64,000 bases of DNA from Nitzschia sp. pyKryTriq1 (taxonomy: Eukaryota > Bacillariophyta > Bacillariophyceae > Bacillariales > Bacillariaceae): assembly GCA_956465555.1 (NCBI GenBank), contig OY101122.1, forward strand, positions 135,001 through 199,000, written 5' to 3'. Below the pieces are notes generated by a model that made no database searches, was not told the origin of the DNA, and saw only the letters and a program-made list of their open reading frames with translations. The stretch's first letter is position 1. Every line of letters starts with the position of its first letter. Positions 2,011 to 49,522 of the stretch are shown in pieces. The translations under genes were made by a program, and so were the position numbers.

Positions 2011-4781
2011 TCCTTGAGCCGAAACAAAAAGAGACGTGTCGCATTGGCCACGGCCAGCCACTGTCCATTGGGACTGAGGCACGAATGAGATAGATTGGAT
2101 TGGGTTTCCAAGGCAATCTCTCCAATAAGTTCACTGGTAGTTGATGCCAATTTGATATTAGTCTTGTTGTTGGACGAAAAGCCCTTTTCTGGATCTTGCA
2201 GTTCTTCTTGACGAGGATCCAACAATTGATACAATTCAATGTGATTGTTTCGTTGCATGGACAAGATGCGGCGGGGACGACGAGTGGTCATAATTGTCGT
2301 CGTAGATGCATTATCCTCCTTTTTGTGGAAGCTCGAGTCCTTGGTGGTCGAAACGGGTGATTGGCTCGGCCAAGGATAGTAGACTTGAGGCCGTCGCTTG
2401 GCAAAGTCCGAAACGACGTAGGTACAAAGTTTCGTATCGACTCCGGCCGTCACGAGAGCTTCCAAGGCATTATTATTATTTCCATTGATATTATTATCCT
2501 CCGCATCATCATGGACGATCGCCATACATTTCACATCATGTGTATGAGGACGTTGTGCCGTAGTGAATTTCCATAGACCACGATCATTAGTTGTAGTAGT
2601 AGTATTTGTTGTTGTTGTCATTGTGCGTTCCAAACAAATGACCCGAGAATCGACTCCCGAGGCAAATAGTTTGGTTTGCGACGGATTGACGACAAGCTTG
2701 AGGACATCGGCCTTGAGTTCGGTTTGTTGAATCGATTGCATCAAGGTTCCCGTTACGGTATCCCAAATCTGGACTTGACCCAAAGAGTTGCCCGTGACCA
2801 ATGAACCATCGTCCAATGATTGCATCGTCCAAACCTTGGTCGGTGTGCGACGTCCACGTGATTCGACTGTCATGCGAAGATCGGGAGATTGCTTCAAGAC
2901 TTGAATCATAATACCGCTGCTGCTTGTATCATCATCATCACTGTGGTCTTCATCGCTGCCATTGTACTTGAAATCCAAGAGATATTTGCGGATCGTGCCA
3001 TCAGCAACTCCAGCATAGAGTTCGGTATAGAAGGTCGTATCGGTACTGCTATTACCGCCGACTTGACGGACACATCTCCACGCCACGGATAAAATGGCTG
3101 CACCAGCAGTCGATAGAGTGACGACCGGTGGTTCTTGCAATTGATAATGATGATGATTATGATGATGATGATGATGTGTGGTGCTGGCCATTGCTCTCGT
3201 TGTTTTTTTATGAATGACTTGCCAAATGCGCACGGATCCATCTTGACAGGCAGCAGCCACCAAGGGAAGAGAAGTAGTAGTAGCAGTCGTTCGTGGAAAG
3301 GCACAAGTCGTCAAATCAAAGACGCCTCCACCTCCACTGGCGATTCGAGATTGGAGCTGTCGTGTAGTTGATCCTCCCAACAAGTTGATCGTCCACAAGG
3401 TCCCATCGGGACTGGCAGCCACCAAAGCATTATTACTGCTGATGTTGTTGTTGTGGTTGTGGTTGTTGGTCGTCTTCGTTTTCGTTTGTACCCAAACGAG
3501 GGAATGTGCCACGGCACGTTTGGACCCTGCCATGGTACACAAGGGAAAGAGATGGGGAGTATATTTTTTGCCACTGGCATATTCGGGAATTTGTGTCGCT
3601 TCGAACAATTCGACACTTCCATCTTGCCTTGACACTGCCAAATAAGAACTAGAACTAGAACTAGAACTGCTAGCAGTAGTAGAACTACTAGCAGTAGTAG
3701 AACTGGAGGAAGAGTTTTTGTTGGTCGTGGTCATGGCAGTCATGGCCAAGACGGGAGAAGGGATATAGTCCAAGTGTCGAACGCGATGAACTTGAGCCGT
3801 CATGGTGGTGGTGGGCGGGTTCTGTTTCGTAGCAGTAGCAGTAGCAGTAGTAGCAGTAGTACTCTTGTCCTTCTTGGTTTTCAATGTGGAAGGAGTAGGA
3901 GTAGTAGTATTGGTCGTAGTATCCACGTCCATGGGGGGCGACTTCTCTTCTTCTTCTTCTTCCTCCTTGTCCAGCTCTTGTTTTGCATTGGTGGTAGAAC
4001 CTTTACTCTTTGCTTTCTTATTCTTGTTGGAAGACAACGGAGAAGAAGAAGAAGCAGCAGCAGTGGTGCTTTTACTACTTGTTTTGGGCGACTTTTTCTT
4101 GTTGGACGACAAGGAGGAGTTGTTGTTGTTCGCAGCAGCAGCAGCACTAGTAGTAGTACTACTACTACTCCCACCATTCTTGTTGTTGTTGTTGTTGTTG
4201 TTGTTTTCCGTGGCGGCTGTTGTTGGGGGTGTTTTTTTTTGGCTGAGCGGCGGTGTCTTAGTATTATTATTATTATTATTATTTGAGCTCTTGGATTTTT
4301 GGGAGGAGGAGGATGATTTGGGTTCCTTCTTTTTCGCCGAACTGGTGCTACTGCTGAGAGCTGCGGCTGATGCCGATGCTGCTGATGCTGCTGATGCTGC
4401 TGTTGGTGGTGCCATGTCTGAAGCGGAAGACGCTCGACGACGGCGTGGAGACATTCGTGATGGGGACATCAATAATGGAGCAGAAGCAGCAGCAGCAGTG
4501 GAATCGTCTGCAGCAACGTCATCAATCTTCATTATTTCATCATCATCTCCTCCTCCTCCTCCAGAGGAAGATGCTCGTGTTCGTCGGCGCTTGGAAGGAG
4601 TAGTAGGAGTACTAGTAACATCTTCTACCGCTGCTGATGGGGCAGCAGCAGCAGCAGCAGCAGCAGCCTGATGATATTCTTGCTCCTTCTTCTTGTTAGC
4701 CTCATCGGCGTCGTCGTCTGCCTTTTTGTTCTTTGTCTTATTGCTGTTGGGTGTGCGCGACTTTGATCTTGCTCGTGCCAT
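564..4781 (-). CDS. UTP4: U3 snoRNP / SSU processome WD40 protein UTP4 (cirhin-like)
   Basis: Nucleolar component of the t-UTP subcomplex needed for pre-18S rRNA transcription and processing. Two exons are visible: 4781-1269 and 968-564, joined across a 300-bp intron (donor GTACGT, acceptor TATAG), both in phase 0, giving about 1,305 residues. The WD-repeat part starts near residue 330 with VHRVRHLDYIP and contains LAVSRQDGSVELFE, close to the start of animal UTP4 (VHRVRFFNYVPS...LAVSRTDGTVEIYN). The second exon supplies the family's C-terminus (SSFGAFVVINLDGKLP, then CLHYNSMLHLDFLG and EMVVVEQPW). The first ~330 residues are Ser/Ala/Thr/Asn runs with Lys-rich patches and are absent from the usual ~690-residue family members. 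I chose the ATG at 4781 (MARARSKSR); an in-frame ATG at 4859 would add 26 residues. Identification is strong; the exact start is less sure. Confidence 0.9.
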
Positions 4782-6606
4782 GCTGGTGCTGATGTTGTGA
4801 TGTTGTGACGTTGTGATGATGGAATAATAAGGAAAGGAAAGGTGATGATCGATGCTCACAACAACTCTAATAAACTATTAACGATGATGAGTATACTTGT
4901 AACATAATATCATCATCATCATCAAAGGGATGGGGGAAATAGAAAGATCCATATTTTTTTGTTATTTTTTTGGTTGGCCTTCCGCGACTGCCGCCTGTCC
5001 GTCGGGCGGGGGTTCGAACGAAGCCCATGATGCGCGCATCATGCATGCCAACCACATACCGGTAGTACTGTACATCAGTACATAAGCTGTCCCATTGGAT
5101 ATCAGAGAGGTATAACAAGACTCGATGATTCAGGACTCAGAGCAGAAGGACGTCACGAAGACCATGAAGACACGATCAAGTAGTTTGCGACACTACCAGG
5201 ATACGGGAGATTGAACGAGGCTGCCGATAGTCACATAATGACTCTTAAAAAACAAGAAAGGTACACGTACCGATACGGAGCGTAGAGAAGATTACCCGAC
5301 AATTTGAATTTTTTGCGAGCCTGCTGTCGAGCTCGAGCTCCACAGCGCGCTCGCAAGCTCGCCGTCTCAGTGGTTATCGCGACACGCGACGACAAGATCC
5401 GTTTCCCGCCAAAATAATAGGAGAGGTGCGAGCGCGGTCCGTCGGTGGTGTGTGCGATGTTTTGATGAAATGCGCATGATGATGATGCAATGTTGTGTGA
5501 TCATCTCTTTTTGCGGGCGGGGGGTTGCTGCAGATGTTGTGGTATCTTTTATTTATGTGCGGACCATTGAGATGCGGTACCAGCAGGATCGATAGGGACG
5601 GGATGATGATTCATTCCCATGTCATTCACCACTAACTTCATTCATTCATTCATCCATTCATCCATTCAATCATTCTTGGTGGAACATTGAGTGACGCGAA
5701 GTATTACTTATTAGTATGACGCCTCCTCAATGGTCTGCGTATAATACTACTGGTAATCCAACCGCGAATGGAATGACAAATAAGAACAAGGCCCTTTGAT
5801 GTTCCGCCATTCCTCTCGATCTTGCAAATCTCTTCAATCCACCCAACACTACTGTACTACAAATCCGAATCCGGTTCCGAATCCGGTTCCATCATGATGG
5901 TCCTTATCTACTCACTATCTATGGTCTCACCTGCATAGTTGAGTCATGGTTCTCTACTGGAAGGCCCGGCCCTATCATTCCCATATTCGACATCACTTCG
6001 CTAACTACTTATGATTATGCCGATGATATGGTTATGATGATGGTTATGATGATGATCGTCGGTGGAGAGCATGAGCATAATTGTACTATTTGAGATGATC
6101 GATATATCGATAATCGAATACTCGTCAACGGATTCCTATACTACTACTAGTACAGTACTTCTTCCACCAGAAGGAGTATCTTCTTCTTCTATCCAAGCAA
6201 GAACTCAAACATCATCATAAATCAGCATCATCATTTATCATGCGATGACCATCATCGCAGCTATTACGTACGACTATAGTACACACAAAAACACCCAACC
6301 ACAACAACCACAATACTGGTGATGGATCGATGGATCGATTGTGGATTGCTGATAACTAACAACAAGACTTATTCATTCATTCATTCATCATCATCCGAAT
6401 CTTCTTCTATACTATTGGCATCGTCGACAACGGCATCGGCATCCACAGATCGATCATCATCTCACAACAATTGGAACCAAACATTTTGGAATTGATTGTT
6501 TCACTCACTTACTCACTCACTCACTCACTGATTGATTGATTCTACTACTACCAGCACTACTAGCGAATACGAGAGAAGAAGAAGAAGAAGTAGGATTGTT
6601 GTCGTG
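4782..6606. other. Divergent intergenic region (UTP4 / multi-b5 gene)
   Basis: About 1.8 kb between two divergently transcribed genes, so it must carry both promoters. It has tetranucleotide tracts: ATTC repeats near 5638-5675 and 6370-6390, and ACTC/GATT repeats at 6501-6540 just before the b5 gene. A copy of the palindrome TACCGGTA lies at 5057-5064. A T-loop-like string at about 5008-5018 lacks the arms of a tRNA. I see no gene. Confidence 0.5.
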
Positions 6607-9600
6607 ATGCAGGATCCTCCTCCTCCTCAGGAAGAACGTCGTCGCTCCTCCAGTGCGAGTGCGGAGAAAGTGCGTCAAGAGATTCTCCAGTTGCAAAAGC
6701 AGCAACAATCGCAACGACTTAGTTACTACGGTACTGGTGGTGGATGGAACTACTACGCATCCAACAACAAACCCACCACCAACAACAACAACCACAACAA
6801 CGACGATTCGTTCTTGTCCGGCGATGGTTTGATGACCAGCCGCTCCTCTTCCTCGTCGTATGAGTTGGGTGTTGGGGGCGGAGGTGGTGGTGGTGGTGGT
6901 TTTGTACCACCATCCCCCAGCACCAGATCACTTCGAGAAGACTTTGCTCTTCCCAAGGATGAAGATGAAGAACCCACCACCACCAGCAGCAGTCGAGCCA
7001 GCAAGTACCAACAAACGGCCGTCAGGATTTTGGCATGGGTGATTGGTGTCTCCATGGCGGTCGGTCTCGCAATGGGCATGGTAGCCTTGGTTGACTTTAT
7101 GAAGGCCAATCGGATCCAGCTCTCACCCACCGCCGGTACTGCTGGCAGCAGTAGTAGTGCATCTCTTACTCTTGTGACGGCTTCGGAGTTGGCCCTACAT
7201 GACAGTCCCCAAGATTGCTGGATTGTCTATTATGCCAAAGTCTATGAAATGTCTACCTATCCCAAACGACGTCATCCGGCCGGTCCAGGATGGATCACTC
7301 CCTGGTGCGGACAAGATGGAACAGAAGCGTATTCCGAGTTTCATTCCGAATCGCTCTTGCGTTCCGTCCAAGGGGATATTGTCGGAACGTATCAAGAAGA
7401 AGAAGAGGAAGAAGACCTTTCTGCTGTGGCATTGGCTCCTCCCAATGACGGAGGCGAGGATGCTTCCGACAATAATGAAAATGGAGTGGCTAATCCTCAA
7501 GAAGGTACGAGTCGTCTTGTCGATTGTTCGGTCGAGTATTGTGTTACCATGGAGGAAGTGGCACTGCACAATACTCCCGACGATTGTTGGTTGGTCTTGA
7601 ATGATCATTGGGTCTACGACTTGACCTACTATGCCGCAGCCATTCATCCTGCGGGAGCCTATATCATTACGTCTCTGGCGGGGACGGATGCGACGCAAGA
7701 GTATGCACGCTTTCATGATTTGAAGCTCTTGCCAGATATTGAACAGTACTTGATTGGTCCCATGGAGGGAGCTACTATCGTGAATGTGATTGCTCAAGAA
7801 GAAAAGGTTCAGCAAGGTACTACGAGCAGCGATTCTTCCGAGGAGGATGGGAACCGTTTCCGTACCTTCAAGGCGGACAGAAGGAAGAAGAGGAGAAAGA
7901 AGAAGAAGAAGGGAGGCAAAAAAACCAGCGAGCCAACGCAGGCTCCTGTCACTGGTGGTGGTGGTGGTGGTGGTGGTCGTGATGATGACGACAGTAAGAA
8001 CAAAGTGGTGGGCGATCCGGTGGATGCAATTTCCTTGTCCGAGCTAGCCTTGCATAATACTCCTGGAGACTGTTGGATGGAGGTCCATGGGGACGTGTAC
8101 AACCTTACTTCCTACAAGCACCCAGGACCTGATCTTAACCTTTGTGCTGTCCCCAAGCAGCGTCGAGGAGCTTTCCGAAGGTCATTGGTCGAGACGGTCC
8201 AACCACCAGATCAGAATCTGACTACAAGATTTGACCAAGCCGCGAATCCCGTCCACCCTCTTTCCTTTCTGCAACAGGTGGACCGTGTCGGCACATTGAT
8301 CCCAGACGCTGGCCCCATCAGCAACCCCTCGCCAGTGTCCAGCCCCACTGCCACTCCCGTCTCTACTCCTGTTTCAGGACCCATCACTGATCCAGTGGCG
8401 GCTCCGCAAGGTATCACCATGGCCGATGTTGCGACCCACAGCACGCCAACCGACTGCTGGGTAGTGTAAGTTTCATGCAAGCGTGATGATGTCGCGTGGC
8501 TTGGCTTTCGTTGTCTGCACGAAGAAGGCCACGAAAACGATTCGACGACCAACACGAGTTCAATAATGCCTCTTGAAACATATCTAACGTTATTGTTTTC
8601 CTTTGCTCTGCACAGCCTTTTCGGAATTGCATATGATTTGACGACGTACACCCATTTTGGTCCTCCGCTTTGTGGGGCCGGGAAAGCTGGAACCGATCTG
8701 ACCTCGGCCTATTTGGGAGCCAACACTCAGCCCACACACAACGAAGCGCTGCTCACTGGTAGCATGTCGAGCTATGTTGTGGGTCCGGTGGTCGCGACGG
8801 ACTCGGGACCTCCGAAGGTGGCCGATCCTGTGCCGGTCGCTAATCCCACGGTCGCCCCGGTCCCTGCGCCTACCATGCCCCCGACTACTCCGCTTACCCA
8901 GAGTCCTACTTTCCCCCCGACGATTGCCGATCCGGTGGCGGCTCCGCAAGGTATCACCATGGCCGATGTTGCGACCCACAGCACGCCAACCGACTGCTGG
9001 GTAGTGTAAGTTTCATGCAAGCGTGATGATGTCGCGTGGCTTGGCTTTCGTTGTCTGCACGAAGAAGGCCACGAAAACGATTCGACGACCAACACGAGTT
9101 CAATAATGCCTCTTGAAACATATCTAACGTTATTGTTTTCCTTTGCTCTGCACAGCCTTTTCGGAATTGCATATGATTTGACGACGTACACCCATTTTGG
9201 TCCTCCGCTTTGTGGGGCCGGGAAAGCTGGAACCGATCTGACCTCGGCCTATTTGGGAGCCAACACTCAGCCCACACACAACGAAGCGCTGCTCACTGGT
9301 AGCATGTCGAGCTATGTTGTGGGTCCGGTGGTCGCGACGGACTCGGGACCTCCGAAGGTGGCCGATCCTGTGCCGGTCGCTAATCCCACGGTCGCCCCGG
9401 TCCCTGCGCCTACCATGCCCCCGACTACTCCGCCGACCAAGAGTCCTACTGTTCCCCCGATGGTTGCCGATCCGGTGGCGGCTCCGCAAGGTATCACCAT
9501 GGCCGATGTTGCGACCCACAGCACGCCAACCGACTGCTGGGTAGTGTAAGTTTCATGCAAGCGTGATGATGTCGCGTGGCTTGGCTTTCGTTGTCTGCAC

Positions 9601-12600
9601 GAAGAAGGCCACGAAAACGATTCGACGACCAACACGAGTTCAATAATGCCTCTTGAAACATATCTAACGTTATTGTTTTCCTTTGCTCTGCACAGCCTTT
9701 TCGGAATTGCATATGATTTGACGACGTACACCCATTTTGGTCCTCCGCTTTGTGGGGCCGGGAAAGCTGGAACCGATCTGACCTCGGCCTATTTGGGAGC
9801 CAACACTCAGCCCACACACAACGAAGCGCTGCTCACTGGTAGCATGTCGAGCTATGTTGTGGGTCCGGTGGTCGCGACGGACTCGGGACCTCCGAAGGTG
9901 GCCGATCCTGTGCCGGTCGCTAATCCCACGGTCGCCCCGGTCCCTGCGCCTACCATGCCCCCGACTACTCCGCCGACCAAGAGTCCTACTGTTCCCCCGA
10001 TGGTTGCCGATCCGGTGGCGGCTCCGCAAGGTATCACCATGGCCGATGTTGCGACCCACAGCACGCCAACCGACTGCTGGGTAGTGTAAGTTTCATGCAA
10101 GCGTGATGATGTCGCGTGGCTTGGCTTTCGTTGTCTGCACGAAGAAGGCCACGAAAACGATTCGACGACCAACACGAGTTCAATAATGCCTCTTGAAACA
10201 TATCTAACGTTATTGTTTTCCTTTGCTCTGCACAGCCTTTTCGGAATTGCATATGATTTGACGACGTACACCCATTTTGGTCCTCCGCTTTGTGGGGCCG
10301 GGAAAGCTGGAACCGATCTGACCTCGGCCTATTTGGGAGCCAACACTCAGCCCACACACAACGAAGCGCTGCTCACTGGTAGCATGTCGAGCTATGTTGT
10401 GGGTCCGGTGGTCGCGACGGACTCGGGACCTCCGAAGGTGGCCGATCCTGTGCCGGTCGCTAATCCCACGGTCGCCCCGGTCCCTGCGCCTACCATGCCC
10501 CCGACTACTCCGCCGACCAAGAGTCCTACTGTTCCCCCGATGGTTGCCGATCCGGTGGCGGCTCCGCAAGGTATCACCATGGCCGATGTTGCGACCCACA
10601 GCACGCCAACCGACTGCTGGGTAGTGTAAGTTTCATGCAAGCGTGATGATGTCGCGTGGCTTGGCTTTCGTTGTCTGCACGAAGAAGGCCACGAAAACGA
10701 TTCGACGACCAACACGAGTTCAATAATGCCTCTTGAAACATATCTAACGTTATTGTTTTCCTTTGCTCTGCACAGCCTTTTCGGAATTGCATATGATTTG
10801 ACGACGTACACCCATTTTGGTCCTCCGCTTTGTGGGGCCGGGAAAGCTGGAACCGATCTGACCTCGGCCTATTTGGGAGCCAACACTCAGCCCACACACA
10901 ACGAAGCGCTGCTCACTGGTAGCATGTCGAGCTATGTTGTGGGTCCGGTGGTCGCGACGGACTCGGGACCTCCGAAGGTGGCCGATCCTGTGCCGGTCGC
11001 TAATCCCACGGTCGCCCCGGTCCCTGCGCCTACCATGCCCCCGACTACTCCGCCGACCAAGAGTCCTACTGTTCCCCCGATGGTTGCCGATCCGGTGGCG
11101 GCTCCGCAAGGTATCACCATGGCCGATGTTGCGACCCACAGCACGCCAACCGACTGCTGGGTAGTGTAAGTTTCATGCAAGCGTGATGATGTCGCGTGGC
11201 TTGGCTTTCGTTGTCTGCACGAAGAAGGCCACGAAAACGATTCGACGACCAACACGAGTTCAATAATGCCTCTTGAAACATATCTAACGTTATTGTTTTC
11301 CTTTGCTCTGCACAGCCTTTTCGGAATTGCATATGATTTGACGACGTACACCCATTTTGGTCCTCCGCTTTGTGGGGCCGGGAAAGCTGGAACCGATCTG
11401 ACCTCGGCCTATTTGGGAGCCAACACTCAGCCCACACACAACGAAGCGCTGCTCACTGGTAGCATGTCGAGCTATGTTGTGGGTCCGGTGGTCGCGACGG
11501 ACTCGGGACCTCCGAAGGTGGCCGATCCTGTGCCGGTCGCTAATCCCACGGTCGCCCCGGTCCCTGCGCCTACCATGCCCCCGACTACTCCGCCGACCAA
11601 GAGTCCTACTGTTCCCCCGATGGTTGCCGATCCGGTGGCGGCTCCGCAAGGTATCACCATGGCCGATGTTGCGACCCACAGCACGCCAACCGACTGCTGG
11701 GTAGTGTAAGTTTCATGCAAGCGTGATGATGTCGCGTGGCTTGGCTTTCGTTGTCTGCACGAAGAAGGCCACGAAAACGATTCGACGACCAACACGAGTT
11801 CAATAATGCCTCTTGAAACATATCTAACGTTATTGTTTTCCTTTGCTCTGCACAGCCTTTTCGGAATTGCATATGATTTGACGACGTACACCCATTTTGG
11901 TCCTCCGCTTTGTGGGGCCGGGAAAGCTGGAACCGATCTGACCTCGGCCTATTTGGGAGCCAACACTCAGCCCACACACAACGAAGCGCTGCTCACTGGT
12001 AGCATGTCGAGCTATGTTGTGGGTCCGGTGGTCGCGACGGACTCGGGACCTCCGAAGGTGGCCGATCCTGTGCCGGTCGCTAATCCCACGGTCGCCCCGG
12101 TCCCTGCGCCTACCATGCCCCCGACTACTCCGCCGACCAAGAGTCCTACTGTTCCCCCGATGGTTGCCGATCCGGTGGCGGCTCCGCAAGGTATCACCAT
12201 GGCCGATGTTGCGACCCACAGCACGCCAACCGACTGCTGGGTAGTGTAAGTTTCATGCAAGCGTGATGATGTCGCGTGGCTTGGCTTTCGTTGTCTGCAC
12301 GAAGAAGGCCACGAAAACGATTCGACGACCAACACGAGTTCAATAATGCCTCTTGAAACATATCTAACGTTATTGTTTTCCTTTGCTCTGCACAGCCTTT
12401 TCGGAATTGCATATGATTTGACGACGTACACCCATTTTGGTCCTCCGCTTTGTGGGGCCGGGAAAGCTGGAACCGATCTGACCTCGGCCTATTTGGGAGC
12501 CAACACTCAGCCCACACACAACGAAGCGCTGCTCACTGGTAGCATGTCGAGCTATGTTGTGGGTCCGGTGGTCGCGACGGACTCGGGACCTCCGAAGGTG

Positions 12601-15545
12601 GCCGATCCTGTGCCGGTCGCTAATCCCACGGTCGCCCCGGTCCCTGCGCCTACCATGCCCCCGACTACTCCGCCGACCAAGAGTCCTACTGTTCCCCCGA
12701 TGGTTGCCGATCCGGTGGCGGCTCCGCAAGGTATCACCATGGCCGATGTTGCGACCCACAGCACGCCAACCGACTGCTGGGTAGTGTAAGTTTCATGCAA
12801 GCGTGATGATGTCGCGTGGCTTGGCTTTCGTTGTCTGCACGAAGAAGGCCACGAAAACGATTCGACGACCAACACGAGTTCAATAATGCCTCTTGAAACA
12901 TATCTAACGTTATTGTTTTCCTTTGCTCTGCACAGCCTTTTCGGAATTGCATATGATTTGACGACGTACACCCATTTTGGTCCTCCGCTTTGTGGGGCCG
13001 GGAAAGCTGGAACCGATCTGACCTCGGCCTATTTGGGAGCCAACACTCAGCCCACACACAACGAAGCGCTGCTCACTGGTAGCATGTCGAGCTATGTTGT
13101 GGGTCCGGTGGTCGCGACGGACTCGGGACCTCCGAAGGTGGCCGATCCTGTGCCGGTCGCTAATCCCACGGTCGCCCCGGTCCCTGCGCCTACCATGCCC
13201 CCGACTACTCCGCCGACCAAGAGTCCTACTGTTCCCCCGACGATTGCCGATCCGGTGGCGGCTCCGCAAGGTATCACCATGGCCGATGTTGCGACCCACA
13301 GCACGCCAACCGACTGCTGGGTAGTGTAAGTTTCATGCAAGCGTGATGATGTCGCGTGGCTTGGCTTTCGTTGTCTGCACGAAGAAGGCCACGAAAACGA
13401 TTCGACGACCAACACGAGTTCAATAATGCCTCTTGAAACATATCTAACGTTATTGTTTTCCTTTGCTCTGCACAGCCTTTTCGGAATTGCATATGATTTG
13501 ACGACGTACACCCATTTTGGTCCTCCGCTTTGTGGGGCCGGGAAAGCTGGAACCGATCTGACCTCGGCCTATTTGGGAGCCAACACTCAGCCCACACACA
13601 ACGAAGCGCTGCTCACTGGTAGCATGTCGAGCTATGTTGTGGGTCCGGTGGTCGCGACGGACTCGGGACCTCCGAAGGTGGCCGATCCTGTGCCGGTCGC
13701 TAATCCCACGGTCGCCCCGGTCCCTGCGCCTACCATGCCCCCGACTACTCCGCTTACCCAGAGTCCTACTTTCCCCCCGACGATTGCCGATCCGGTGGCG
13801 GCTCCGCAAGGTATCACCATGGCCGATGTTGCGACCCACAGCACGCCAACCGACTGCTGGGTAGTGTAAGTTTTCTGGAATCTATTTTTCACGCGGCTTT
13901 CACCGTCTCCGCCTTCGAGGCCACAAGAACGTGAAGATTTTCTGGCTTGATCAATGTGACTCATACGCGCTTGTCTTTTCGTCTTTTTTTCTTCCATAGT
14001 TTCTTTAACGATGCTTACGACCTGACGAACTACTATCATGTTGGGCCAAATTTGTGTGTCCCTGGCAAGGCTGGAACGAACCAGACCGTTGCCTATTTGG
14101 GCGTCAACAGTGCCTCTGCTCCACCGCACAATGTTGGTCTCCTGTCCAGTGTTTTGGGCAACTTGATCGGTCCTGTGGTTGCCTCGTCTGTTGCTGTAAC
14201 GAGACCTCAGCTCGTGGCTGATCCTATTCTTTTGACGCCGATCACATCCTCGCCCACTGCAAGCCCGACAACGTTGGATGCAATCTCTCCTACCGAATTG
14301 TCCCTGCATAATACACCCGAAGACTGTTGGATGGAAATACACGGAGGCGTCTACAACCTCACTGCGTATCCACACCCTGGTCCCGGACTTTGTGTTGTTC
14401 CATCAGCGCGAAGGAATTTGGCTGGGGCCGTTATATTGGATCAGAGTCTAACGGCGAGATTTGATCTAGCCAGGTCTCCCTCCCATCCCATTTCTTTTCT
14501 CACCCAAGTCGAATCTTTACGTGTCGGAACCTTGCTTGGCTCGGTTCCACTGGATCTTGTACAAGTGGCTACTCCCACGACCTGTGTTAGTAGGTCTACG
14601 CTACAAGAGCACAACGGAAGAGACGACTGTTGGATTGTGTAAGTAGTATCAGGCTGTTTGAGAGTGGAACTTTGTTCGCATTGCCAGCTCTAACGCACTC
14701 TTTTTTCCCGCATCAGCGTGCATGGATCTGTTTACGACGTTTCCACCTATCAACATCCTGGTGGTCGGTTGGATTGTGGTGAAGATTTGACCGAAGACTT
14801 CGACGACGAAGATGAACCTAGACACACACTTGCCTTTCTTGATATGATTGCCTCTTATATGCTCGGGGCCTATGAGACCAATTGCGCTCCAGGAGTCGAC
14901 GAAGTCATCACTGGAGTCGGGAACGATACACCCACTGCCCTCGATTCTTCTGGAGTTACCAGTGCTCTACTCGTTGGGCACAATAGCAAGAATGATTGCT
15001 GGGTCGCCATTGACGGTACTGTCTACGATCTCTCCCGATACAGCCATCCTGGAGGGGATATGAAGAATTGCGGTTCCGATATCACGAACGCCTTTTTCGG
15101 GGCCAGAAGCAGCACTCCCCATACGACAAATCTCCTACTGGGCGAGATTTCCCAGTACATCGTGGGCCCATATCTTGGTGTCACTGCAGGAGGTGGCGGC
15201 GGCGGCGGCGGCGGAGGTGGAGTCGAAGGTGTGGTAAACAGTGGCAATACAATCACACTTGCACAGCTCTCTACGCATTCATCAAAGGGAAAGGATTGCT
15301 GGACTGCTTACCACGGCAATGTCTACGATCTGAGCAAGTTCAATCATCGTGGAGGCAATGGCTACATCCAATGTGGAGTCGATGATACGAATTCTTTTTC
15401 TACAAAGCATAGCGCAGGGCTTCTTGGAAGCATTTCCAACCTCAAGGTCGGGCCGCTGGAAGGTGGCTCTTCGTTCACACCTGGAGGTGGAGGTGGAGGT
15501 GGCGGAGATGACGACGACGACGACGATGATGATAGTGACGATTAA
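6607..15545 (+). CDS. Giant type II membrane protein with ~18 cytochrome b5-like domains
   Basis: Thirteen exons: 6607-8465; ten exons of 390 nt starting at 8616, 9156, 9696, 10236, 10776, 11316, 11856, 12396, 12936 and 13476; 14000-14638; 14717-15545. All introns are phase 2 with GTAAG donors, and the total is about 2,408 residues. A Ser/Asn/Gly-rich N-terminus precedes one membrane helix (about residues 141-164). The rest should be lumenal or extracellular: b5-like domains of the form xHNTPxDCWxVxxGxVYDLTxYxHPGG, joined by Pro/Thr linkers. Three complete domains are in exon 1, ten are completed by the repeat exons, and five follow. Both heme-ligand histidines are kept in each domain, although HPGG becomes HFGP in the repeats and HPAG, HPGP, HVGP or HRGG elsewhere. 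The C-terminus is Gly- then Asp-rich. The ATG at 6607 is the first in frame. Redox, heme-storage or adhesive roles are possible; function is not established. Confidence 0.85.
8389..13873 (+). repeat. 540-bp tandem array, ~10.2 copies (exon + intron units)
   Basis: Each unit is one 390-nt exon plus one 150-nt intron inside the b5 gene. Introns and exons look identical in all copies apart from a short linker segment. That segment is type A (encoding LTQSPTFPPTI) in the first and last units, type B (PTKSPTVPPMV) in units 2-8, and a B-then-A mixture (PTKSPTVPPTI) in unit 9. The intron has donor GTAAGT, a CTAAC branch-point candidate about 30 nt before the acceptor, and acceptor CACAG. Copy number could be misassembled. 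Confidence 0.97.
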
Positions 15546-19821: not shown

Positions 19822-20108
19822 GATGGTGGTGTTGACAAGAAATAACGTTGTATCATTCAAATTATGAGGAGAGAGGCAGTGGTGATTAGCGGTTTGTGGA
19901 CGGAGTAGCTCTGATAAGCGAGGTTGTATTGGCGTGTTCTTCGCGTTCGGTTGTTCGTACAGGCGTATCGTGCGTATGAATTGCCCAGCTTTGCAATCGT
20001 GGCAAAGGTAACTTTCGCGGGGGAATTGGTGCGAGCTTCGCTCGCACCGCCAGCCGCATCCAACGATCGATCCCGGGCTTATTTTACCCGAACATAGCGA
20101 ACCCGAAC

Positions 20109-20253
20109 AATGGCGAACATCTTATGGTTCCTATTTTATTAAAAAACTAACCACAAATAACAGAACAACAATAAACAATAACAAGCATGCAAGCAAGAGA
20201 ACATTGCGAAATGCGGATCTCCATCATCATTCGTTCTTCTTCGCCATTTTCGA
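20109..20253. repeat. Direct repeat, copy 1 (~145 bp)
   Basis: Starts AATGGCGAACATCTTATGG and ends in TCGCCATTTTCGA. It is repeated almost exactly at 20464-20610, differing by a 2-3 bp indel in an A/T run. It lies between short minus-strand genes; there are no inverted ends or coding content. Confidence 0.85.
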
Positions 20254-20257
20254 TACG

Positions 20258-20443
20258 ATTAGCTACTACTAGCGCACCGGGGGCAGGGAGGCGAAACTTC
20301 GCTCGCCTCTCCTCTTTACTTGCACTACTGCTGGTGCTACTACTACTAGCTAGAGCGAAGATGACGAAGAACATCATCTCTTCTCGTTTCGGAGGGACTG
20401 GAGATATTGGAAATGAAGCGAAGCGCGTCGCATCCCATGATGC
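20258..20443 (-). pseudogene. Duplicated 3' end of the RRASLHF-tail gene (fragment B)
   Basis: About 186 bp nearly identical to 21381-21553, the 3' end and downstream flank of the gene at 21478-22086, apart from a short indel in a CTACTAG stretch. On the minus strand it encodes HHGMRRASLHFQYLQSLRN and then EKR-stop (stop at 20374-20376). The rest of the coding sequence is absent, because homology stops just upstream of the HHG codons. It is best read as a truncated duplicate. Confidence 0.6.
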
Positions 20444-20463
20444 CCGAACAGCGAGCCCAAAGA

Positions 20464-20610
20464 ATGGCGAACATCTTATGGTTCCTATTATTTTAATAAA
20501 AAACTAACCACAAATAACAGAACAACAATAAACAATAACAAGCATGCAAGCAAGAGAACATTGCGAAATGCGGATCTCCATCATCATTCGTTCTTCTTCG
20601 CCATTTTCGA
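20464..20610. repeat. Direct repeat, copy 2 (~147 bp)
   Basis: Partner of 20109-20253. The two copies flank fragment B, so the whole block probably arose by segmental duplication in this cluster. Confidence 0.85.
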
Positions 20611-20933
20611 CACCGCATTATTTCGTCCCACTACATACTTCCATCAGCTAGGAACAGAGGAAGAAAACACAAAAAATCCATTTCCCGCCGGACGCACGGG
20701 AGTCTCTACTACTATGTACTACAGTACTACTGACGAGTTAAAATATCTGTGCTCAGATAATATAACAATATGCATTGAGGAGGTTCTCCTTCTGGCGTAG
20801 TAAGCGTTCTTGTTTCTTCTACTCCTCGCTTGCAGTATGGTAAGAAAAACATGCACTGAGTACTAGGTACACTAGTAGTAGTAGGAAAGGATACGTGGTA
20901 ATAGAAATCTACTAGTAGAGTAGAGATAGTTCT

Positions 20934-21118
20934 ATTAGCGCACCGGCGGGGACGCGAAACTTCGCTCGTCTCTCCTCATTACTACTACTGTAGTGGTAAT
21001 GAACTACTAACACTACTGCTACTGCTAGCTAGTAGAGAGAAAAAATGATGAACTTCTCTTCTAGTTTCGGAGGGACTGGAGATCTTGGTGGAAATGAAGC
21101 AAAGCCCTTGGCGCGTGC
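20934..21118 (-). pseudogene. Diverged 3' end of the RRASLHF-tail family (fragment C)
   Basis: A diverged copy of the same module: it begins with ATTAGCGCACCGG, as in the other two copies. Read on the minus strand it encodes HAPRALLHFHQDLQSLRN followed by a stop at 21061-21063. Upstream coding sequence in this frame is not recognisable, so it is either a remnant or the last exon of a gene I cannot assemble. Confidence 0.45.
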
Positions 21119-21477
21119 AGACAACACATACAACAACAACAACGACAAGAGAACTCATTCTTCTGCTTCGCCATTGACATCGTATTCTTCCCATTACTTC
21201 CCAGGAACCGGAAAACAAGAGCAAAACATCCATTTCCCGGACGGCATTGATATTAAGAGTCGTTTGTTCTACTCCTCGCAGTAGTACTAGTACTACAACA
21301 AGTATGGTGGTAAGAAAAAAAATAGCGCACTGAGTAGTACTACTAGCAGGAGACGGCAAGCATTTCTAGTAATAGATACTATTAGCTACTACTAGCGCAC
21401 CGGGGGCAGGGAGGCGAAACTTCGCTCGCCTCTCCTCTTTACTTGCACTACTGCTGGTGCTACTAGAGCGAAGATGA

Positions 21478-22086
21478 CTAAGAACATCTCTTCTCGTTTC
21501 GGAGGGACTGGAGATCTTGGAAATGAAGCGAAGCGCGTCGCATCCCATGATGCGTTCGGACAAAACCAATTGGACAGGGGGGAGATGGACCGTATTTTCG
21601 AATGTCTTCCTCTTTCATTTCTTCATTTTCCTCGACGGCGGTAGTACTACTAACAGAAGAGAAACAAGAGCGGCCATAGTGATAGTCTTCTTCATAATCG
21701 TAGCAGTAGGAAAGAGCACCAGGATACCCCCACGAGGAAGGTAATGAAGATGACTCCCCTGATAATGCTCTTGATGAGGGTTCGCTTGCTAGACTGGAAG
21801 AACTGGTGCGTTGTGCTGGTGGCAAGGAAGCCTTCTTGTCCTCCAGCTTTGAAAGCTCGAATATTGTCGAGGACGAGGATGAGGTCTTGGTGTTGTTGTT
21901 GATGAATGATGAATGATGTTGCTCGAGAATGATCAGGGGTGCCTCCTCAGTTACGACCTTCCTATTAATAGCAATGGAATACTTGGGAACAGTGGAGGAG
22001 GAGGACATCCCCGGCAGTGGATCATGTAGTGAGCGACATGGGCGATGGTAGATCGATGATTTTCGTGGTGGTGGTGCTGTTACCAT
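21478..22086 (-). CDS. Short Ser-rich protein with MRRASLHFQDLQSL tail (member D)
   Basis: 202 residues from an ATG at 22086, with no recognised domain. It is rich in Ser, Pro and Glu, has a Tyr-rich patch (YCYDYEEDYHYGRS) and an acidic stretch (EENEEMKEED). It ends THHGMRRASLHFQDLQSL plus eight residues. The RRAS sequence fits a basophilic (AGC-type) kinase site; this is a motif match only. The tail is shared with member A (19381) and with fragments B and C. The 3' end has been duplicated at 20258-20443. No signal peptide or membrane helix is seen. Confidence 0.5.
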   Translation of the reverse strand: MVTAPPPRKSSIYHRPCRSLHDPLPGMSSSSTVPKYSIAINRKVVTEEAPLIILEQHHSSFINNNTKTSSSSSTIFELSKLEDKKASLPPAQRTSSSSLASEPSSRALSGESSSLPSSWGYPGALSYCYDYEEDYHYGRSCFSSVSSTTAVEENEEMKEEDIRKYGPSPPCPIGFVRTHHGMRRASLHFQDLQSLRNEKRCS

Positions 22087-30555: not shown

Positions 30556-32589
30556 ATGCACCCGCCGTCGTCGATCTACATATTCGCGATGCTACTTGCG
30601 GTCCTAGTCATCCTCGTCAATCAAGGACGATTGCTGAGACTCGTCGAGTCCAAGCTGTTAGTATTGCCATCGTCCCACGACGACGACCGTTATCATCATG
30701 TCGACACGACGGCAGCACACGATGCATTTTCTTCGGCTCTACTATTAGCTCGAGGAGCTTCAGGAGCTGCTACTGGTATTTCTTCTCGACTGGAGCATCA
30801 TCATCATAAGCAGGAGGACAGCACCACGTTACTATTACTATCAAAAGAAGAAGACCAAGACTGTCCCTTTCGAGATTCGCCCTTGTATCGATCCGTCTTT
30901 GTGTATCCCAGCCCCAACGACAATGACGAGTGGGAAGGAGACATTTTGTCGGAATACGGTGCGGCGATGAATGCCACTTCTTGGCCTTGGATCGACATTG
31001 ATCAGCAGACTCGCACCAATGGTACCGTCCATTACGATCCGACCAGTCAGTCGGTACAATATACGACCGAACTGCTGGTCCGCGACATTTTGACCCATCC
31101 CGCTTCGTGCCTTCGCACGTACAATCCCGACAATGCCAAACTCTTTTATGTTCCGTACTTGCCATCTGTCGAATATCATAAAGGATCATCGTCCACCTTG
31201 GGAGATTATGAAACCAGTTCCTTTGGACAAGCCCTGATGGATGCGACTGGGCATGGAGATTATCGAGCCTGGGAATCGACCTTTGGTTTGACGTCGCGAT
31301 ACTGGCAACGACGAAAGGGTGCCGATCATATTTTGGTCTTTTCCGAACCCTTGCATGGTTTGTACCACCCCAAGTCGAAACGTGGATCCTTTCATTTCAT
31401 TCATACCCAAAAACAATTGACACCACCCATTGTCATTTCGGTCGAACTCAGTCGGACCTTTGTCGAAAAATATCCTCATTGTGCTCGAAAGAATATCCTC
31501 ATGCCGTATCCCAATACCGATGGAAATTGGTTTAATGGAGTCTATGAGAAACGTGCCAAGAAATTATATCAAGCTGGACTAGTAAAAGCATTCGATGCTA
31601 GTAATTCCATCACCACACCAGCGACTCTTCCTGCCGAACTCGAACTATTCTCATCACTGTCTCGTGGTGATCATACTTGGCACCAACAAGAACAACAACA
31701 TCTCCAGCCCCGTCCACTCGCTCAATTCTACAAGGGTGGTAATCATGGAACCTGTACGCGTCTTCGGAAAGCCCTCCAAACCGACTTTCGATGTACCGAG
31801 TCGGCGCGAGTGTTGAAAAAAGCGCAGGAGCGACTCCACAACAACAAGAACAAGAACAAAAAGAACTTGGATGACTACACCTTGGCGTATCGACAGGCTA
31901 CCTTTTGTCCTTGTCCGGGAGGTGATTCTCCCTCGGCCAAACGCATGTTTGATGCCTTGCATGCAGGATGCATTCCACTCATTTTAAGTCATGACTTTGT
32001 TTGGCCATTTTCCCCAGAATTCGATACCACCGCTACAACTACGACGACCACGATGATGATGAATGCTATTACTACGAATACTTCATCCTCGCCGACGACC
32101 ACGGCTCCTCAGCTCTTGGATCCCAATGACTTTTCGATACGACTCAAGGCAGAAGACTATCAGGATGCTTCTTACAATGAAAAATGTGAAATTGTTCTTC
32201 CAACAAAGTCATCGGGTGAGGATGATGATGATACTAACTCTAGTACCACTACTACATCCCAGCAGCACCAGCAGGAGGAGCAGCAGCAGCCTCAAAGAAC
32301 AAGAACGATTCAGCAATTCCTGGAGGAAACCATTTCTTCTACCGAGCTCTTGCGTCTGCGACAAGGCGTCCAGCGTGCCGCCGACCACTACGCCTACTAT
32401 AAACGGCGTCCCGACTTGCCTTTGAATCCCCTGCAAGAACGTGTCCTTCCCGATGGAGGGGCGGCTCATGCTCTCGTCCAAGCCTTGGCGGAACGGGCCG
32501 AGGGGGTCCTATGGCCCGCCTGTCAAAGGGAATTGGAACAAGGATCGGCCAAACCCAAGCAACGGGATGCGAGAGCGTTTCGATGCTAG
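30556..32589 (+). CDS. Exostosin-like glycosyltransferase (GT47)
   Basis: 677 residues. An N-terminal membrane anchor (SSIYIFAMLLAVLVILVNQG, about residues 5-24) indicates a Golgi type II protein. The exostosin domain shows FVYPSP, DNAKLFYVPYLPS, HILVFSEPLHG, IVISVEL and PLAQFYKGGNHGTCTRLRKA. It then shows the family's nucleotide-sugar region ATFCPCPGGDSPSAKRMFDA followed by LHAGCIPLILSHDFVWPF. Low-complexity Thr and Gln tracts interrupt the C-terminal part. GT47 enzymes transfer sugars such as GlcA, Xyl, Gal or Ara to cell-wall or proteoglycan chains; the donor here is unknown. No intron is needed. The ATG at 30556 was chosen because it directly precedes the anchor. Confidence 0.88.
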   Translation: MHPPSSIYIFAMLLAVLVILVNQGRLLRLVESKLLVLPSSHDDDRYHHVDTTAAHDAFSSALLLARGASGAATGISSRLEHHHHKQEDSTTLLLLSKEEDQDCPFRDSPLYRSVFVYPSPNDNDEWEGDILSEYGAAMNATSWPWIDIDQQTRTNGTVHYDPTSQSVQYTTELLVRDILTHPASCLRTYNPDNAKLFYVPYLPSVEYHKGSSSTLGDYETSSFGQALMDATGHGDYRAWESTFGLTSRYWQRRKGADHILVFSEPLHGLYHPKSKRGSFHFIHTQKQLTPPIVISVELSRTFVEKYPHCARKNILMPYPNTDGNWFNGVYEKRAKKLYQAGLVKAFDASNSITTPATLPAELELFSSLSRGDHTWHQQEQQHLQPRPLAQFYKGGNHGTCTRLRKALQTDFRCTESARVLKKAQERLHNNKNKNKKNLDDYTLAYRQATFCPCPGGDSPSAKRMFDALHAGCIPLILSHDFVWPFSPEFDTTATTTTTTMMMNAITTNTSSSPTTTAPQLLDPNDFSIRLKAEDYQDASYNEKCEIVLPTKSSGEDDDDTNSSTTTTSQQHQQEEQQQPQRTRTIQQFLEETISSTELLRLRQGVQRAADHYAYYKRRPDLPLNPLQERVLPDGGAAHALVQALAERAEGVLWPACQRELEQGSAKPKQRDARAFRC

Positions 32590-46291: not shown

Positions 46292-49200
46292 ATGGTTTCA
46301 ACGTTTATGATGAGCAACAACCAAGAGGGAACCCTCGACAGGACATCAAGAAATACTAGCAATAAAAATACGAAGTCCTCCTCCTCCTCCTCCTCCTTGA
46401 GTGAATTCTTGGAAACTCATGATGTAAAGGAGAAGCCGGACGAGCGCAATATTATCATCAGGGATGATGGTGCCGGCGGCGGTCCCAGCAACAATAAGAG
46501 CAATCACAACAAAACTTCATCATCATCATGGGGAATGCTTCTCTCGCCATCCACAAAATCATGCTGTTCCGGTGACGGGGGGGGGGATAATAATGATGAT
46601 GATGATGATGATGGAGATCATGATAGTACTAGTAGTAGCACATCCTCGCGAGACGCGAAAAACCCAACACGGGGACCCTTATTATTATCGCCGTTGGCGG
46701 AAGAGTGGGGATCGGTGCGACAACAAGGCACAACCACCAGCACGATGTATGCGCCCAAAAGTCCCTGTTCGATGAAAAGTGGTGGTGGTGGGGCCACTAG
46801 TTTCAAGCTACCTATTAATATTATTCCTACCTTTTTGACATCAGCGAGTCAACTTCCAGCAGTAGCAGAAGGAGGACGAGGATCATCGCAACCCAAAATG
46901 GAAGAAGAACATCGGGGCCGCACCAAGAATCTTACTACTACGACTACCACTACCACTTTGCCAGGAAGTGCTGATTCAGCTGGAAATGCCTTGTTTGCCA
47001 AGATGATGCTGGCAAAGAGGTATACTCTTGGTGGTGGTGGGGCAGCAGGAGGCTATGGCAGCAACATCACCAAAAGAGCGACACCAGCACAGCATCAAAC
47101 AACAACAAGAACAACACGAACGACGAATTCCCATGAGGGTCTTTTGAATCTCGTTGCCGTTCGAGGAGAGGACGGTGGTACTACTAGTAATACCATCATC
47201 ATGATGAGGAGGGGGCTTCTTCTTGACGACCCATCATCGAACCATACTAGTGGAAGCAACACTTCTTCATGGAGGAGTGATAATGCTTCTTGGAGGAGTC
47301 AGGCGCATTCTTGTTCAGGAAACAACAACAACAACAACAACAACAACAGCAGCAGCAGCTTTGGTACTATTGCGAGTGTGTTCACGAGAAAGCTTGCTCC
47401 AGAACAAGAAGCAAAGCTCAAAGAGCTTCAAGAGCTCACCATTCGAGCGAGCAGCGGCCACTCACCACGCAACAAAGACACAGCACTACCATCACCCGAT
47501 ATGAAGAAGGTTATTCTTCGTCATGATGCAACATCGCCTTTTTCTTCTCGCTCGGTACCATCAGGAGCAGCCACCACATCACCATCTTCTTTTTCTGTCG
47601 TTAAAAATCCAACAATGACGATGGCAAGGAAATCTATTTCGCCATGTCGGGGAGGAGGAGGACAACGACGAACGGTAGGCAGTCTACCGCTTCGGTACAA
47701 AACCAAGTCTGCGGATGGCCTTTTCGAAATGTCACGAGGACCTCTTCTTGGAGGAGCAGTATTAAGAACAGGAGGAGGTTCTTCTTCTCTCACCGGCACC
47801 GAGCAATGGAACTCGTCCAGAAGTCAGGAAGATCTGGTCAAGAAAGTACACGATAATAAGGAAATACAAGCAAGCCGACGCAACAGCAAGAAGAAAGCGA
47901 CAAGCACTTCTTCTATGTCCGTGAGGCGTCTAGAGGATGCGCCTATTGAAGCAGAACAACTTGCTGCTATGAAAGCGCTGCTCACAGGTGATACGACGAC
48001 TCCTCATCGTACTGGTGGTGTTCCTACTATTTCTACTACTCATAAAAGTAGGAGGAGCAGCTCCAAGCCCACGAGTCCGCAAAAAAATAGTGGTGGTAAT
48101 TGTGATGAGATAAAGGAGGTTCGCAGGAATCGATCGACAACGGATTTGCTGTCGTCCGCTCATCGATGGGAGGCGACTACTTCTGACCGCGCCCTTCAAA
48201 ATCGGAAGAAACTATCCACGTCAGCCAACAATAACACCACCAGCAGCAAGATGCTGATGGATCTCACCCCCTTGTTACAAGGAGCCATCCGAACGCATGA
48301 TCTGAATTTTAGGAGCTCCTCCAAGCCCATGATGAGTTCGCAAATTAGTGGTGGTGGCGGTGATGAGATCAAGGAGGAGGTTCGCAGGAACCGATCGACT
48401 CCCGATTTACTGTCCAGTTCCCGAGTGGCTCGATGGGAGGCCACTACTCCTGACCGTGCTATTCAAGGTCGGAAGAAACTATCCGCCTCCAAGGATCCCA
48501 CTACCAACACCTACAACAAGATGATGATGGATCTCACTCCTTTGTTGCAAGGAGGCATCAAAACGCATGATTTGAATGCTTCGCGATGGACGACTAGTTA
48601 TGCACTCGAAGACCCGATGAAAAGTCGCAACTTGACTAGAAGCACTAGTTCGGATAGATGGAATGTCGACGCTTCCCATCGCTCTTGTCCTTCCGTGACT
48701 CGTGGTCTGGGGGAACCATTTCCGAGAAACCAAGGAGGAGAAGACAACAGCGATTCTGCTCGAGAAACCAGGAGTTGCGAGGGAGGTCTAGGGGAGTACT
48801 TGAAGAAAAAGGTGGCAGGGGGACCTGGGCCGTTCCTTCGTGCAAATCTTCCGTCGGGCAGCGTGTACAGCAAACACAGCGTCACCAGTCGAAATACAAC
48901 GACATCTTCGAGTGAATGGATCTCCTCATCTCCCGAGGCGTTGGCCATCAGTGCACTCATGAAGAATCAAACTGGAAAGATGACGTCGGTCAAAATGTTA
49001 TCCCGAGGGGTAGGTGGATCCCGAGAACGACTGTCGGAAAGCTTGGGGACGCTTCGACGTTCACGCGAGAATCTCACGAGTGTGGCTTCTGTGGAAAAAG
49101 CAGTCCCGTTCCAGGCCGACCAAGATGTTAGCCTTCGGAATAGTACTTGGGGAGAGCAAAAACACCCAGCACCAAGGAACATGTTTGATATCATCATCAA

Positions 49201-49522
49201 TCCCAGAAGTGGTAGTGACGATGATAATGCAGATACGCTCACTCCTCGTTCTCCCGCTTCGTGCGGAAGCAGAAATTCAGCATTCCGACAAGCGATTTTG
49301 AGGGCTGGCAGCACGGCGCGTGCTGCAGTAGACGAAGAGGAGGAGCTCTCATTGGCAGATAGTGATGAGGAATCGTCTTCGTGTAGCTCGGAAGAATCTC
49401 CTTATTGCAGTGACGAGGAATCCGAATTGGTCTCGGATGATGAGGAAGAGGAAAATCAAGATGGGAGGGAGGACGACGACGACGAGGAACCAGCATCTAT
49501 ATCCGGAGATGAAGAAGAGTAG
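46292..49522 (+). CDS. Disordered motif-family protein, paralog 4 of 4
   Basis: 1,076 residues in one exon with an ATG at 46292. The N-terminal third is Ser/Asn/Gly/Asp low complexity. Islands: SVFTRKLAPEQEAKLKELQE (about residue 361), SLPLRYKTKSADGLFE, RLEDAPIEAEQLAAMKALLT, two successive copies of a ~95-residue unit (EVRRNRSTxDLLSS...RWEATTxDRA...DLTPLLQGxIxTHDLN), SPEALAISALMKNQTGKMTS then VKMLSRG, SLGTLRRSRENLTSV, and NMFDIIINPRSG. The C-terminal ~50 residues are strongly acidic with Ser/Glu/Asp clusters, unlike the other paralogs. No membrane or secretion signal is seen. Function unknown. Confidence 0.78.
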   Translation: MVSTFMMSNNQEGTLDRTSRNTSNKNTKSSSSSSSLSEFLETHDVKEKPDERNIIIRDDGAGGGPSNNKSNHNKTSSSSWGMLLSPSTKSCCSGDGGGDNNDDDDDDGDHDSTSSSTSSRDAKNPTRGPLLLSPLAEEWGSVRQQGTTTSTMYAPKSPCSMKSGGGGATSFKLPINIIPTFLTSASQLPAVAEGGRGSSQPKMEEEHRGRTKNLTTTTTTTTLPGSADSAGNALFAKMMLAKRYTLGGGGAAGGYGSNITKRATPAQHQTTTRTTRTTNSHEGLLNLVAVRGEDGGTTSNTIIMMRRGLLLDDPSSNHTSGSNTSSWRSDNASWRSQAHSCSGNNNNNNNNNSSSSFGTIASVFTRKLAPEQEAKLKELQELTIRASSGHSPRNKDTALPSPDMKKVILRHDATSPFSSRSVPSGAATTSPSSFSVVKNPTMTMARKSISPCRGGGGQRRTVGSLPLRYKTKSADGLFEMSRGPLLGGAVLRTGGGSSSLTGTEQWNSSRSQEDLVKKVHDNKEIQASRRNSKKKATSTSSMSVRRLEDAPIEAEQLAAMKALLTGDTTTPHRTGGVPTISTTHKSRRSSSKPTSPQKNSGGNCDEIKEVRRNRSTTDLLSSAHRWEATTSDRALQNRKKLSTSANNNTTSSKMLMDLTPLLQGAIRTHDLNFRSSSKPMMSSQISGGGGDEIKEEVRRNRSTPDLLSSSRVARWEATTPDRAIQGRKKLSASKDPTTNTYNKMMMDLTPLLQGGIKTHDLNASRWTTSYALEDPMKSRNLTRSTSSDRWNVDASHRSCPSVTRGLGEPFPRNQGGEDNSDSARETRSCEGGLGEYLKKKVAGGPGPFLRANLPSGSVYSKHSVTSRNTTTSSSEWISSSPEALAISALMKNQTGKMTSVKMLSRGVGGSRERLSESLGTLRRSRENLTSVASVEKAVPFQADQDVSLRNSTWGEQKHPAPRNMFDIIINPRSGSDDDNADTLTPRSPASCGSRNSAFRQAILRAGSTARAAVDEEEELSLADSDEESSSCSSEESPYCSDEESELVSDDEEEENQDGREDDDDEEPASISGDEEE

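Follow-up and report, generated by a model that had tools for sequence, protein, structure and literature searches.

The window analysed here, a 64,000-nt stretch of contig OY101122.1 from the diatom Nitzschia sp. pyKryTriq1, contains at positions 6607-15545 on the forward strand (the strand of all exons, introns and domains given below unless otherwise noted) one clean gene model with 13 exons and 12 introns. When joined, the 13 exons amount to 7227 nt and give 2408 codons with one terminal stop. Inside this gene sits a tandem array of cytochrome b5-encoding exons and their introns. A sequence-only reading of the locus had described the array by itself; the array is real, but it makes up the middle of the larger gene. 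Exon 1 (6607-8465), which lies in the open frame 6532-8469 and joins the next exon in frame, carries the ATG, an N-terminal tail, a predicted transmembrane segment, b5 domains 1-3 and the first part of domain 4. Downstream of the array, exon 12 (14000-14638) encodes the second part of domain 14, domain 15 and the first part of domain 16, and exon 13 (14717-15545) encodes the second part of domain 16, domains 17 and 18, an acidic tail and the stop.

In total 18 b5 domains are predicted in the protein and 18 DCW motifs were found, one per domain. Eight of these domains fall outside the ten of the array, including domain 1 (7168-7401; PF00173 E 3.2e-13), domain 2 (7537-7770; E 2e-14) and domain 3 (8023-8307; E 2.9e-8). 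Domains 3 and 15 (14277-14543), which flank the array region, share an insert-bearing form of the b5 domain, as seen from the alignment, and this likeness suggests an older duplication of a larger block that would have preceded the expansion of the array. The domains of the array itself are connected by proline/threonine-rich linkers. The protein has a single strongly hydrophobic segment, the predicted transmembrane segment at residues 141-164 (7027-7098), where the 19-residue Kyte-Doolittle mean reaches its maximum for the protein (up to 2.19, at residue 141); the next-highest hydropathy peak (1.65, at residue 1968) falls where domain 14 ends. With this lone segment close to the N-terminus, the protein would probably be of type II and cross the membrane once, all b5 domains being lumenal or outside the cell, and this predicted topology fits the lumenal or cell-surface protein that had been proposed from the sequence.

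The array consists of ten 540-bp units (8466-13865), each made up of a 150-nt intron followed by a 390-nt exon, and the period is exactly 540. This confirms the ten near-identical units of the sequence-only reading, for which 8389-13873, the range of period-540 identity, had been given as limits. The array introns start at 8466+540k (k = 0 to 9), the first at 8466-8615, and introns 2-10 follow in steps of 540; all of them are 150 nt long, run from GTAAGT to GCACAG and are identical (10/10). The array exons start at 8616+540k and have phase 2 at both borders (codon split GT/C). With an exon length that is a multiple of three, the units are frame-neutral, as had been claimed, and tandem frame-preserving exon-intron units are thus present inside one gene. 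Each b5 domain of the array spans an exon junction, with its first part encoded at the end of one exon and its second part at the beginning of the following one, and the array yields ten complete and identical b5 domains plus the N-terminal half of an eleventh, the C-terminal half of which (in exon 12) has diverged.

Two unit types, A and B, and one hybrid between them can be distinguished. Type A is represented by unit 1 (exon 8616-9005) and unit 10 (13476-13865), which agree with each other at all variable sites and differ from unit 2 at seven positions. Type B comprises unit 2 (9156-9545) and the six units without any difference from it, namely units 3 (9696-10085), 4 (10236-10625), 5 (10776-11165), 6 (11316-11705), 7 (11856-12245) and 8 (12396-12785). 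Unit 9 (12936-13325) differs from unit 2 at two positions and is a B/A hybrid, being of type B through position 298 (sites 279-298) and of type A from position 306 (sites 306-308). The order of the units is accordingly A, seven times B, the hybrid, and A.

The only variable exon positions are 279, 280, 284, 296, 298, 306 and 308, all inside 30 nt of the proline/threonine-rich linker. They affect five codons and all of them change the amino acid (L/P, Q/K, F/V, T/M and I/V). When seven sites were placed at random in the exon, none of 2,000,000 placements had them within 30 nt (an approximation gave 2e-7). Given this clustering beyond chance, types A and B differ by one block rather than by independent mutations, and this block was later spread or exchanged among units. 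The hybrid unit 9 has the form that a B and an A unit would produce through one crossover or one conversion endpoint. A donor for the type-B linker block was searched for with a 30-nt pattern allowing at most 3 mismatches, and all eight matches were in the array (7 exact and 1 with one mismatch). Besides the seven sites, the period-540 identity is interrupted between 8389 and 13873 by one extra mismatch, at 8394. The start of this homogenised zone at 8389 corresponds to exon position 314, just beyond the variable block, and its end at 13873 lies 8 nt inside intron 11, the last bases being mostly those of the splice donor, which are expected to be shared anyway. The introns are at least as alike as the exons, as had been stated earlier, and in fact more invariant, with 0 of 150 variable sites compared with 7 of 390.

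All 12 introns of the gene start with GTAAGT, end with AG and occupy a homologous phase-2 site, where they split a valine codon after DCW(V/I). Retention of any of the three kinds of intron (array intron, intron 11 and intron 12) leads to an immediate in-frame TAA, since the phase-2 donor reads GTAA. The array intron has a length divisible by three, and the donor-site TAA is its only in-frame stop, so that the frame evidence is weaker here than for intron 11 (13866-13999), which at 134 nt has to be removed to keep the frame. For the array introns, splicing is predicted from the in-frame model, the splice consensus and the TAA. The sequence CTAAC, which we take to be the branch point, begins 32 nt from the 3' end of intron 1 and 27 nt from that of intron 12 and is absent from intron 11.

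Intron 11 occupies the same place in its domain as the array introns do in theirs and is a diverged relative of them. In a global alignment with the array intron, its inner score was matched by 4 of 2000 dinucleotide shuffles; blastn between the two gave short pieces only, the best of 14 nt at E 0.15. Given an alignment above nearly all shuffles, the exon-intron unit had probably already been duplicated before the recent amplification. Intron 12 (14639-14716; 78 nt) lies at the same phase-2 place in domain 16. Insertion of introner-type elements was also considered as a source of identical introns and was rejected: the 540-bp unit, intron included, had no matches outside the array within the sensitivity of the search, and introns 11 and 12, which interrupt their domains at the corresponding position, are unlike in both sequence and length.

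The cytochrome b5 identity proposed earlier is well supported. When the ten array domains are counted as one type, the protein has nine domain types, and 9/9 of these pass the PF00173 cut-off of 23.7 bits (25.3 to 53.8 bits); the array domain scores 33.2 bits (E 5.2e-8) and domain 14 scores 25.3 bits. H34 and H59, presumably the axial heme-ligand positions, are invariant in the alignment of all nine types, and we infer heme binding by the predicted chain from these positions. The motif at the first of these positions varies, being HPGG in domains 16 and 17, HRGG in domain 18, HPAG in domains 1 and 2, HPGP in domains 3 and 15, HFGP in the array domain and HVGP in domain 14. The low Pfam score of the array domain and the replacement of HPGG by HFGP (HVGP in domain 14) mean that heme affinity could be lost. 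Besides the DCW cysteine, a second cysteine follows the first ligand-position histidine in 8/9 domain types (domain 2 being the one without), and such a pair would suit a disulphide outside the cytosol.

A sequence search against solved structures gave cytochrome b2 entries and 1cxy (cytochrome b5) as best b5 matches. The entry ranked highest, a pentatricopeptide protein, was rejected as a relative: its score was a sum of sub-significant pieces, none of which passed alone, and most of the other entries were b5 proteins. No NCBIfam model matched the array unit. Among the viral contigs searched for relatives, 9 stretches fitted the pattern and none was confirmed. Among prokaryote genomes, 1 of 62 stretches was confirmed as a relative, with domains 17-18 as query. 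This is a protein from a Saccharibacteria metagenome-assembled genome (L041:4980-5378), with 47% identity in the best segment, and like the diatom protein it has a hydrophobic N-terminal stretch followed by a b5 domain with the DCW motif and the second cysteine. In contrast to the diatom protein it is 132 amino acids long, with one domain and no array.

The assembly comprises 40.65 Mb in 20 contigs, one of them of 4.74 Mb. A search of it with the unit as query, in which only the best candidates were scored and very common words were skipped, gave 11 matches (9 full-length and 2 partial). With 11/11 of these inside the array, chance is not an issue. A protein search with the array domain gave 35 matches, of which 28 were in the array-bearing gene and the other seven were weak (E 2.4e-4 to 0.15). 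At least 31 PF00173 matches are present in the assembly, seven of them in the array-bearing gene and at least 24 elsewhere, and none of the latter was close to the array domain in the protein query. Among the 5 of these at least 24 other matches for which the gene context was read, no sister gene with the same layout was found. These five b5 matches, all at 894-905 kb of contig C1, belong to flavoprotein-like frames, which we assume to be fumarate-reductase-like, with the b5 domains at the C-terminal end. For the silicon-transporter family, eight matches were found in the assembly, all above the family cut-off, compared with one match, below the cut-off, among 14 control genomes, which identifies the organism as a diatom.

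Two more of the PF00173 matches outside the gene, at C1:3920 kb and C3:2773 kb, were aligned to one another at the DNA level. The stretch around an equal-scoring b5-coding frame is present twice there, at C1:3916000-3925500 and C3:2769000-2778500, with 99.5-100% identity, a longest piece of 5.7 kb and insertion/deletion differences; this could be a recent segmental duplication or a mobile element. Repeats of other kinds also occur in the window. A two-copy tandem repeat of about 270 bp (about 76% identical) is found at 48053-48577, within the open frame 46292-49522, for which Pfam gave nothing at E 0.001. At 20087-21553 there is a cluster of segments that recur with 68-94% identity and are 173-276 bp long, and at 53624-54266 there are repeats of 113-144 bp in both direct and inverted orientation, with 76-84% identity. 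Pfam recognises an exostosin GT47 domain (E 8.5e-25) in the open frame at 30556-32589.

Beyond intron 11, domain 14 has 56% protein identity to the array domain and the neighbouring intron is barely alignable, whereas the array introns are identical. This contrast indicates that the array is either recent or homogenised, and the earlier proposal of a very recent or continually homogenised array is supported by the identical introns together with the recombinant unit 9. For Phaeodactylum tricornutum a base-substitution rate of 4.77e-10 per site per generation is given (PMC6604790). With this rate, the lack of any change in 540 nt among the seven B units corresponds to a total branch length of at most about 1.2e7 unit-generations (95%), or, for a star-like history, to an upper bound of about 1.7e6 generations per unit, both being orders of magnitude only as the rate comes from another diatom or another strain.

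Two neighbouring flavoprotein-like genes on the minus strand of contig C1 (L020:1634-4009 and 4346-6769), each carrying a C-terminal pair of b5 domains, are 96-100% identical along a tract of about 800 nt in the middle. Seven consecutive 100-column bins of their alignment are at 100%, the bins at the tract edges are at 96% and 88%, and all other bins are at 33-82%. The tract looks like recent gene conversion and suggests that homogenisation occurs in this genome.

Taken as a whole, the locus is probably best explained as encoding a type II chain of 18 b5 domains, ten of which derive from a 540-bp array that is altered by unequal crossing-over or gene conversion. Unequal crossing-over between units would add or remove whole units, and gene conversion would copy sequence from one unit to another. 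Given a 390-nt exon with phase-2 borders and an intron that brings its own splice sites, every recombination product would remain in frame, and each step would alter the protein by exactly 130 residues, that is one domain and one linker. The same exchanges would also keep exons and introns alike, and the order of A and B types, including the hybrid, is what would be expected from unequal crossing-over or from gene conversion. The chain would form an extended stalk, the length of which, and the heme number if heme is bound, would be set by the number of units, and this length-adjustable stalk may be capable of redox reactions or serve to hold heme. A bolder version, which we consider rather unlikely, is a surface-anchored multi-heme chain in which recombination, through unit-number alleles, would adjust how far an extracellular redox polymer reaches or what capacity it has; longer or shorter chains would then cross the outer cell layers and might, for instance, transfer electrons out of the cell for iron reduction or keep heme bound. 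As for the sequence-only reading, its interpretation is supported in part, namely in the exon-intron structure, the frame, the b5 identity and the fit of the topology.

The copy number, which comes from one assembly, is the main doubt, and change of copy number over time, like the expansion and the stepwise change of protein length named in the sequence-only reading, is a prediction from the structure of the array. Units 2-8 are identical over 540 nt, which is the very case where assemblers fail, and mis-counted identical coding repeats have been documented (PMC6868369). An assembler could thus have expanded or collapsed identical copies, leaving the true number of units lower or higher. We regard such an artefact as improbable given that the few and large contigs suggest long reads able to span the 5.5-kb array, that every unit copy found belongs to this array, none lying at another place in the assembly, and that the A, B and hybrid types can be told apart and follow an order. 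A gene that is a relic or is not expressed, in which the array would no longer make protein, is very unlikely: the frame is free of stops through 2408 codons and 13 exons, GTAAGT...AG is found at 12/12 introns and the heme-ligand positions are invariant.

Two further explanations concern the exons themselves. Exons of equal length with symmetric phase-2 borders can be freely skipped or swapped, as would be needed for a Dscam-like array in which the exons are alternatives, mutually exclusive or regulated, and one is chosen at a time. Such a choice among exons that are nearly identical rather than diverged (0-7 of 390 sites differ) would give almost the same protein, and inclusion of all exons gives complete in-frame b5 domains; this explanation appears a shade less probable even than a relic. 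The least probable is that the units are old and that purifying selection on the protein has prevented their divergence. As this would require, the exons of the ten units agree almost throughout, but the introns are identical too, and past intron 11, itself diverged, domain 14 has not kept the array sequence.

The sequence-only reading knew of no b5 protein built in this way. In agreement with this, no b5-built or diatom exon-intron array was found in the open-licence literature, among the matches listed; the principle, on the other hand, has been published for other genes. Bacterial surface-protein genes have no introns. In the bacterial surface proteins Ilm of Yersinia ruckeri and SasG, identical domain repeats, here Ig-like or B repeats, can vary in number (PMC6868369). 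The same genomic plan is already known from human LPA KIV-2 and from the spider MaSp2 and flagelliform silk genes, and less exactly from fish piccolo b.

In human LPA (apolipoprotein(a)), the KIV-2 repeat is likewise a tandem exon-intron array inside a gene, through which the protein gains or loses complete domains; its unit types are called A, B and C, and "amazingly little" variation had been reported earlier (PMC4378929, PMC11462820). The LPA unit differs in being 5.6 kb long, with two short exons, introns of about 4 kb and about 1.2 kb and a kringle domain, and its copy-number polymorphism in humans (1 to about 40 units) has been measured, whereas the diatom array is known from one assembly. 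KIV-2 units also vary more than the diatom units; variation may exceed earlier belief (PMC4378929), and A and B standards had 87 and 120 differences in two amplicons (PMC11462820). Spider MaSp2 genes share with the diatom gene repeated exon-intron pairs with introns homogenised within the gene (94.3-99.7% alike, depending on the gene), unequal crossing-over has been proposed for spider silk genes, and flagelliform silk genes are cited as repeated exon-intron pairs in the same source (PMC9779670). Silk repeats are rich in few amino acids, in contrast to the folded heme domain here, and silk introns arose independently within a genus (PMC9779670), whereas in the diatom gene twelve domains are interrupted by an intron at one and the same homologous position. 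In teleost piccolo b, one domain-encoding (zinc-finger) exon has been amplified 8-16 times, again with unequal crossing-over proposed, but the zebrafish exons are 702-1350 bp long with frame 0 at both ends and change events are rare (PMC3484663).

What looks new here is such an array in a diatom and built from a heme domain. The homogenised exon-intron arrays found in print are animal genes, and the ten-unit diatom case would represent the same solution in a distant eukaryote, in a unicellular system where gain and loss of units could be counted directly. Ten identical donor and acceptor sites in one pre-mRNA also test the fidelity of splicing strictly. Should heme binding and surface location be confirmed, the protein, with 18 b5 domains in a chain on one membrane anchor and both heme-ligand positions kept, would have an unusual multi-heme architecture.
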